Assembly (NCBI GenBank): GCA_027972325.1
Contig: JAPMOS010000138.1
Coordinates: forward strand, 39,227 to 103,226
Direction of reading: 5' to 3'
DNA: 64,000 nt
Source: Paratrimastix pyriformis
Taxonomy: Eukaryota > Preaxostyla > Paratrimastigidae
Under the pieces are notes generated by a model. That model searched no databases and was not told the origin of the DNA. It was given only the letters and a program-made list of their open reading frames with translations. Positions 27,034 to 60,895 of the stretch are shown here, piece by piece. Position 1 is the first letter of the stretch. The number at the start of each line of letters is the position of its first letter. The position numbers and the translations under genes are program-made.

Positions 27034-28620
27034 ATGATCCCGAGAATCACACTGCGGCTTCCATTCACATTATTCTTGGCAACAATATGCTTGTTATTTC
27101 ATGCCGCATGCGCTCTTTCGCCATCCGGGATCCTGGGCTCTCATTCTGGGACCAAACCCGGGTATTTCACAATCAACGCTTTCCAAAATTCTCTTTCTCT
27201 CTCAGTTGAGGGAAGATCTATTTTTTACGAGAGGGACCAACAAGGTCATTGCTTTCCTTCTCCTGTTTTTTTCCGACACCGGCCTCCACAGATTCGAGTT
27301 GGCATCCGGCCAATTTTTCATTCAGATACGCCGAAGTGAAAGATTTGGGGGAAGCATCATGCTTTTCCTCGAGGATGGCACTCCTTCTTTCGCCATCTAC
27401 CGGAAGCGGATTTCTCTTTCGGCGTGAAACACCGACGACCACATGGAGTTTTTCTCAGGTGCTGAACAGCGGATATCCTTCTGTCGCTGCCTGCGCCATT
27501 TCACCGGACTCCATTGCGATTGGGTCTCCAGACGCAAACAAGGGACTCGGCGCTGTCACCGTGTATGCCCTTCTCCCCGATGGTCCTTTTGTTGGCCTCC
27601 CCACGCACTCGCCTCAACGCTTTGCTTCGCTAGGCCACTGGGAGAAGTCAGGGCTCCTCGAGCTACCTCCTCAAACCGCCAGTTTCGGGAGCGCGCTCGC
27701 CTTTCTGTCACCAACCCAGTCGAGGCGACCCGTCCTTCTCGTTTCTGCTCCAGACGAGATCCTCACACCACAGGTGCCCCAAGCTCCAGGCAGTGGGCGG
27801 CTTCACCTCTACCAACCACAAGATGGTGGTCTGGGGACACAAGTTCCACCATTCAACTCATCTTCGTTTTTCTTCTTCTTCCTGTAGGCGCCTACATCAG
27901 GGTCGCATCGATTAACCCACCAGAAAGACCTCAAAAAGTGGCCCCCACTCGCTTTGGTGTGCCATTGGCATGGGCCGGAGGGGATGGTCCTGAGCGCCTC
28001 TATGTCGGAGAGACCCCTCTTCTTGGCAACAAGACATCCAATCATGGAGAACTGCTCGTTCACATTCTGTATGTGCTCGACGGCGAGGCAGGTCTGCTTT
28101 CCGGAATGGGCTCGCCCTCACCCCCGCTTTGTTTGTAGGACGAACCCGCCTTCAGCAGACCTTATCGTTGCCCTCTTCCTTCTCCCCCGCTTTCCCATGG
28201 CTGCTCGCGGCACACGTCTGTCGTGGCCCCCTTGGGTTCGCTGGGATCTGAGCCCCCGCTTCGCTTTCTTCCGATAGGACCGTGTACTCTTTGTCGGGCA
28301 GCCAGCGGGCCGTCAGGCTGGCTTGCTCTTCTCCAGGCGGGGTCTGCTAGATTATCTCTGACCGCGCGTTTTCATTTCTTCGACGCGTACAGAAACCGGG
28401 CCGTACACCCTGCGAGATGTTGTCCTTTTCCCTGATGGTCAAGAGCATGCTCCCTCCGACCATTTCTCGGCGGCCCTTTCTGGGTCTTCGGCCTCCCCGG
28501 CCCCTGTACATACCCTTCTACTTGCGGCCGGCCAGTGCACTGGCGAGAACGCATGTTCCGCGCTCACTTACCAGGTTGTGGCCAATGACTCTGTTCTCTC
28601 CCGACCAAGCGCGGCAAATT
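27034..28620 (+). CDS. Giant protein N terminus: signal peptide and FG-GAP repeats
   Basis: ATG 27034 opens a classic signal peptide (IPR.. then PFTLFLATICLLFHAACA, cleavage probably after the Ala of ACA). Exons 1-6 join in phase and give FG-GAP-type blades: SIAIGSPDANKGLGAVTVY; FGSALAFLS then VLLVSAPDE; TRFGVPLAWAGG then LYVGET; a blade with DRVLFVGQPAGRQAGLLF; and DHFSAALSG then HTLLLAAGQ. The FG(x)A/V + hydrophobic + G/AP spacing is that of integrin-alpha propellers; a clear DxDxDG calcium loop is not visible. Exon 6 ends at 28620 before a GTCTG donor. Confidence 0.75.

Positions 28621-60895: not shown

Follow-up and report, generated by a model that had tools for sequence, protein, structure and literature searches.

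A candidate giant single-pass surface receptor with a filamin-type domain array in Paratrimastix pyriformis

Results

Gene structure

We analysed a window of 64,000 nucleotides from Paratrimastix pyriformis (assembly GCA_027972325.1, contig JAPMOS010000138.1, here G000:C44:39227-103226). The genome comprises 56.06 Mb in 495 contigs, the G+C content is 62%, and the window ends where the contig ends. The plus strand carries a predicted gene at 27034-60895 that in the curated model has 55 exons and encodes 9,065 amino acids, the only stop codon being at the end. The following elements were assigned to it.

27034..27117, plus strand: start codon and candidate signal peptide, residues 1-28, MIPRITLRLPFTLFLATICLLFHAACA; hydropathy peak of 2.04 at residue 11, cleavage site placed by eye
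27118..28620, plus strand: head, residues 29-423, in seven exons or exon parts; probable FG-GAP propeller by a same-genome FG-GAP_2 profile
28790..49860, plus strand: 58 filamin-type immunoglobulin (Ig) domains, residues 455-6592, over many exons; Pfam, own-protein profile, PDB profile and fold
49858..50121, plus strand: EGF-like cysteine stretch, spacing CNCTAGYSGPQC by eye
50122..56221, plus strand: DGxC cysteine-repeat region in several exons; cysteine and DGxC counts, paralogous matches
56231..56722, plus strand: domain with no Pfam name between the cysteine repeats and the last filamin pair; related stretch on contig C25
56771..57493, plus strand: filamin-type repeats 59 and 60 with one intron within; own-protein profile, Pfam 0.0011 and 0.0012
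57639..57695, plus strand: predicted membrane helix IFSGVGVATVILVVVVVLL, residues 8558-8576; hydropathy 2.96
57696..57926, plus strand: start of the cytoplasmic tail; open frame, donor GTCCGT
58029..59595, plus strand: mobile element, present in high copy number, within the last intron; genome copies
59657..60895, plus strand: last exon with a proline-rich tail, PIPDNYSYE and GYAYENQ, and the stop codon; in frame, linkage less sure (see below)

As no single frame spans the region, exons were chained with a small home-made dynamic-programming gene finder. The first run used a GTRAGT donor model and codon usage from two long open frames, without reference to U1, and it chained 26.3-61.4 kb into one plus-strand gene; on retraining, the donors drifted to GTCTGT and GTCCGT. 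The gene finder was later retrained with U1 pairing as the donor prior. The 5' end, an exon near 30.5 kb, the 3' end and three false in-frame introns were then curated by eye. These three, at 32539-32580, 47289-47342 and 48258-48311, hold residues required by the filamin pattern and were merged into the exons. Training on 29 fetched loci yielded another model, which over-chained both strands and was dropped.

The single plus-strand gene of the original prediction is upheld by this chain, which is free of internal stops, and by two shared exons. The open exon 46774-52029 joins filamin repeats to the EGF-like stretch and to cysteine repeats, and exon 56144-57184 holds the last cysteine repeats, the unnamed domain and filamin repeat 59. 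Since the upstream parts are tied in this way, only the linkage of the tail is at stake. The predicted signal peptide is retained as well.

Filamin-type array

The filamin fold predicted for the repeats is secure. One frame of the array matches PF00630 at 2.2e-31, over the cut-off and independently of our own profile, and scores 43.2 bits (cut-off 27) against PF23616, the N-terminal Ig domain of GEX2. Matches to PDB profiles and the fold agree with this assignment, and FUS1p is among the PDB profile matches (E 0.0029). Taken singly the repeats are weak in Pfam, and no stretch passes PF23616 alone, which counts against the assignment. With a profile trained on the sequence of this protein, 58 + 2 repeats are found at domain E < 1e-6, so that the "about fifty" filamin domains foreseen become 58, and the two further ones near the membrane are confirmed as repeats 59 and 60. 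Exon 32976-38654 contains repeats 12-28 complete.

Each of the 60 repeats has two or more cysteines, most often separated by about 24 residues, as expected of domains outside the cell. Together with the signal peptide and the helix, these pairs give good support to the proposed extracellular array and surface location. The repeats have undergone recent duplication, and the predicted protein is rich in cysteines and sequons. Chains of the S-layer protein SbsC make up four of the 50 structural-neighbour rows listed. In protein-database searches, which detect relatives sharing exact words only, none of 7,999 candidates scored for residues 60-1030 of frame 46774-52059 reached E<=0.001, and none of 8,000 scored for exon 32978-38653 reached E<=1.

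Two fragments related to the gene lie upstream of it. One of 175 nucleotides (22886-23060), 4 kb upstream, is 94% identical to filamin repeats 12/20/24. The other, 61 nucleotides at 22833-22893, recurs inverted at 41650-41710, mostly within an intron.

Head

The N-terminal head contains seven blade-like stretches counted by eye, e.g. SVAACAISPDSIAIGSPDANKGLGAVTVYALLPDGHWEKSG and FGSALAFLSPTQSRRPVLLVSAPDE; its intron 27583-27633 is uncertain. The evidence for a propeller comes from a locus on contig C16 (L046, around 92802) that is Pfam-positive for FG-GAP_2 (8e-15). With a profile built from five blades of this locus, cut by hand, the head obtains 19.7 bits (E 3.5e-8 for a single sequence). 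Shuffled heads reach at most 9.6 (644 reported of 1,000), and pieces from the rest of the protein at most 5.8 (64 reported of 81). L046 itself, with its FG-GAP_2 repeats, is a piece of a separate gene.

Several results weigh against a propeller. Residues 1-424 have no Pfam match at E<=10. The head found no protein at E<=5 among 8,000 scored database candidates, its top row in PDB has E 0.64, and within its own genome only its own exons appear at E<=1, with no paralog. A genome search with PF14312 gave three other places, L046 among them and the head not, and PF01839 gave no place anywhere, the head included. Plain local alignment of the head with L046 scores 52, a value equalled by 30 of 500 shuffled heads (maximum 77) and by none of 81 pieces from the remainder of the protein. 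An AlphaFold2 model was made of 27291-27827 as one contiguous piece that includes the putative 51-nucleotide intron; its predicted local distance difference test score (pLDDT) is 35, and it was not used. The original prediction had named a Pfam FG-GAP match and a propeller model as tests of the head; neither was obtained, and the L046 profile is the one positive. The head is likely, though not proven, to be an FG-GAP propeller.

EGF-like, DGxC and unnamed domains

The EGF-like repeats that had been proposed are reduced to one EGF-type spacing seen by eye, with no Pfam match at E<=10. The DGxC repeats stand, with 231 cysteines in the 1,548 residues 6592-8139 and 18 exact DGxC motifs. One RGD tripeptide occurs in this region, at residue 6699 of the 9,065-residue model, and an (ATC)n array (53170-54036) lies within an intron of the gene.

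Membrane helix, tail and last intron

The hydropathy of 2.96 at residue 8558 is the maximum of the whole protein; the next values after the signal peptide, 1.99 and 1.94, belong to filamin strands. This agrees with the single membrane helix expected, which is directly followed by RMRSKRR. The candidate tail of 489 residues has five tyrosines, one YxN motif (YEN) and 21 PxxP motifs; a motif scan of the tail found no NPxY and no PPxY.

The tyrosine- and proline-bearing exon is in frame, but its linkage is less sure, because it lies behind a high-copy element. The last intron (57927-59656, 1,730 nucleotides) consists mostly of this element. At least 37 further copies, each 1.4 kb or longer and 95-99% identical, suggest recent spread; the count is a lower bound, as 39 of 507 candidates were scored. 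Part of the element's open frame resembles what we take to be the end of a non-long-terminal-repeat reverse transcriptase, with no Pfam match. The phase fits across the intron, the donor is GTCCGT and the acceptor CAG. On the other side, C75:1746-3865 and C264:4198-6291 are 98-99% copies of window positions 59262-61400, starting inside the element and including the tail exon, while a search with the C-terminal protein sequence located the membrane exon on the window's contig alone and not on C75 or C264. For this reason the tail exon may be an allelic or duplicated copy, or may result from a misjoin. The frame of the membrane exon is also open into the element to 58805, so that the protein could end by read-through.

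Splice donors and U1

The 54 donors of the gene have C at +3 (48), T at +4 (39) and G at +5 (51); the acceptors are CAG (35), TAG (17) and AAG (2). The donors fit the complement of the U1 small nuclear RNA (snRNA) of this genome better than GTRAGT in 48 of 54 cases. At least six of eight bases match this complement in 46 of 54 donors, compared with 78 of 2,005 GT sites in the span, these 46 included. As the donor prior came from U1, this agreement is in part circular; the first run was free of that prior.

Eight U1 copies were found, with 41 of 992 candidates scored. Their scores of 50.8-60.2 bits are below the Rfam gathering score of 69.5. All eight begin with AUACAGACCUUG, in short AUACAGACC in place of AUACUUACC, where the Rfam consensus starts with AUACUUACCUGG (four of the eight copies scanned). 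Positions 5-6 are changed from UU to AG, giving the exact complement of AG/GTCTGT. Training on the 29 fetched loci, ten of them filamin or GEX2 matches, was noisy and led to GTC[CT]G donors from both GTRAGT and neutral starts. In a neighbouring gene that we take to be AUP1-like, GTCTGT and GTCTGC stand by eye at the introns presumably expected. These sequences suggest that U1 snRNA and splice donors changed together in this genome. Such a change would make standard gene finders break genes of this kind. No report of an altered U1 was found in the literature searched, which took in few subscription papers.

Related loci in the genome

Filamin matches followed by cysteine-repeat matches on one strand were found at four other loci.

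C25, about 93 to 79 kb, minus strand: filamin-then-cysteine-repeat locus by successive matches
C1:847-855 kb: filamin-then-cysteine-repeat locus by successive matches
C1:61-53 kb, minus strand: filamin-then-cysteine-repeat locus by successive matches
C449:127-119 kb, minus strand: filamin-then-cysteine-repeat locus by successive matches

They are known as successive matches rather than single genes, from a filamin search in which 44 of 195 candidates were scored. Of the four, the C25 locus also has the C-terminal part, with the unnamed domain and the filamin pair at 37-38% identity. Two loci upstream of it (L048 and L049) contain filamin-like repeats; no head was seen there. PF00630 gave at least 17 matches on 12 contigs of the genome. 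The genome searches with PF00630 and PF23616 missed the window's own repeats, and thus their counts are lower bounds.

Other features of the window

The minus strand at about 12400-13900 resembles what we take to be an AUP1-like acyltransferase/CUE gene; its single exons have no Pfam match. Ten other open reading frames of the window have no Pfam match at E<=0.01. Besides the intronic array at 53170-54036, long simple-repeat or satellite arrays occur at 882-1523, 18299-18870, 20058-20376 and 22043-22582. The arrays of the window include (CAT)n and a 13-bp unit in about 42 copies.

Discussion

Comparison with known systems

Filamin-type Ig domains are mostly known from the cytoskeleton and a few gamete adhesion proteins. 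The protein shares the repeat fold with the cytoplasmic filamins, which crosslink actin, but differs from them in the signal peptide, the membrane helix and the cysteine pair in each repeat. No CH actin-binding domain was found in residues 1-424 (E<=10) or in the other pieces scanned, which did not include exons such as 28698-32922; for lack of this domain we do not regard it as a filamin.

By the features tested it is not an integrin alpha either, because the head has no DxxxDxxxD calcium loop (one loose D-x-[DNS]-x-[DNSG] occurs at residue 151) and the tail after the helix has no GFFKR-type motif. Most integrin features are absent, and of the proposed integrin-like receptor the predicted helix and the probable FG-GAP-type head are retained. 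A genome search with the integrin beta family PF00362 gave no match, but control genomes gave none either. The probable N-terminal FG-GAP-type head and the one predicted membrane helix would be shared with integrin alpha and with LINKIN, which has seven atypical FG-GAP domains (PMC4275582), the head match of our protein being indirect. The difference lies in the stalk, which here consists of filamin-type repeats.

To our knowledge, neither GEX2 nor FUS1 has a propeller head or a DGxC region. They have far fewer domains than the 58 + 2 found here. Their layout of signal peptide, filamin-like ectodomain and membrane helix is present, by prediction, in our protein, which matches both PF23616 and FUS1p. 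GEX2 of plants and FUS1 of Chlamydomonas carry filamin-like Ig domains in surface proteins for gamete adhesion (PMC9187738). Since extracellular filamin-like domains are therefore precedented, the unfamiliar architecture claimed at the outset is narrowed to the length and the combination, for which no published report was found in the same literature. The protein combines known adhesion parts in a new way, and the sequences point to GEX2 and FUS1 as the nearest in kind and, for the head, to LINKIN.

Interpretation

At the level of sequence there is one coding gene with a filamin fold, a cysteine pair in each repeat, a signal peptide, one membrane helix and related loci. Surface display, disulfides, the propeller fold, a binding role and tail signalling are what we infer from it. 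The gene probably encodes a giant surface receptor for adhesion or recognition, a type I single-pass protein that is not an integrin. The head, probably an FG-GAP propeller, would sit at the far end of a rod that keeps it off the membrane. This rod would consist of 58 filamin-type Ig domains, and a disulfide probably staples each of them; cysteine-rich DGxC repeats and then the two membrane-near filamin domains would follow below. Binding to another cell, matrix or prey would be the task of the head, perhaps shared by parts of the rod, and the proline-rich, tyrosine-bearing tail would couple this binding to the cytoskeleton or to signalling. A bolder version, which we offer tentatively as it may well be wrong, is an independently assembled, integrin-like force receptor, perhaps 0.2 micrometres long by our estimate, in which the FG-GAP head sits on 58 disulfide-stapled domains that, like those of cytoplasmic filamin, would open under load. 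It would belong to a lineage-specific family that takes the role of integrins in contact sensing, and the tyrosine/polyproline tail would be its signalling end.

Other explanations bear on the integrity of the gene and on its function. It is unlikely that the region holds two or more genes, or that a misjoin of the contig at the mobile element has brought in a tail exon from another place: the element in the last intron and the copies on C75 and C264 that have no detected membrane exon speak for this, whereas the fitting phase and splice sites oppose it, and the shared exons confine the doubt to the tail. Another possibility, to which we give rather little credence, is an enlarged protein for gamete or mating recognition, similar in kind to GEX2 and FUS1, whose filamin-type domains would bind the partner cell, the head being secondary. 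The PF23616 and FUS1p matches and the role of GEX2 and FUS1 in gamete adhesion (PMC9187738) are consistent with it; however, the same frame fits PF00630 better, and several related loci occur within one genome. It is very unlikely that the protein is a passive giant rod of a wall, coat or matrix, i.e. an anchored structural glycoprotein with no specific receptor function. The repetitive build with recent duplication, the many cysteines and sequons and the SbsC chains among the structural neighbours would suit such a rod, but the distinct non-repeat head would not, nor would the long tail and its PxxP and tyrosine motifs.

If the receptor reading is true, filamin-type Ig domains have been multiplied to form a giant rod outside the cell, with a propeller head attached to it. 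The gene would then provide a comparison case for the origin of integrin-like contact receptors, and the related loci would be its natural variants.
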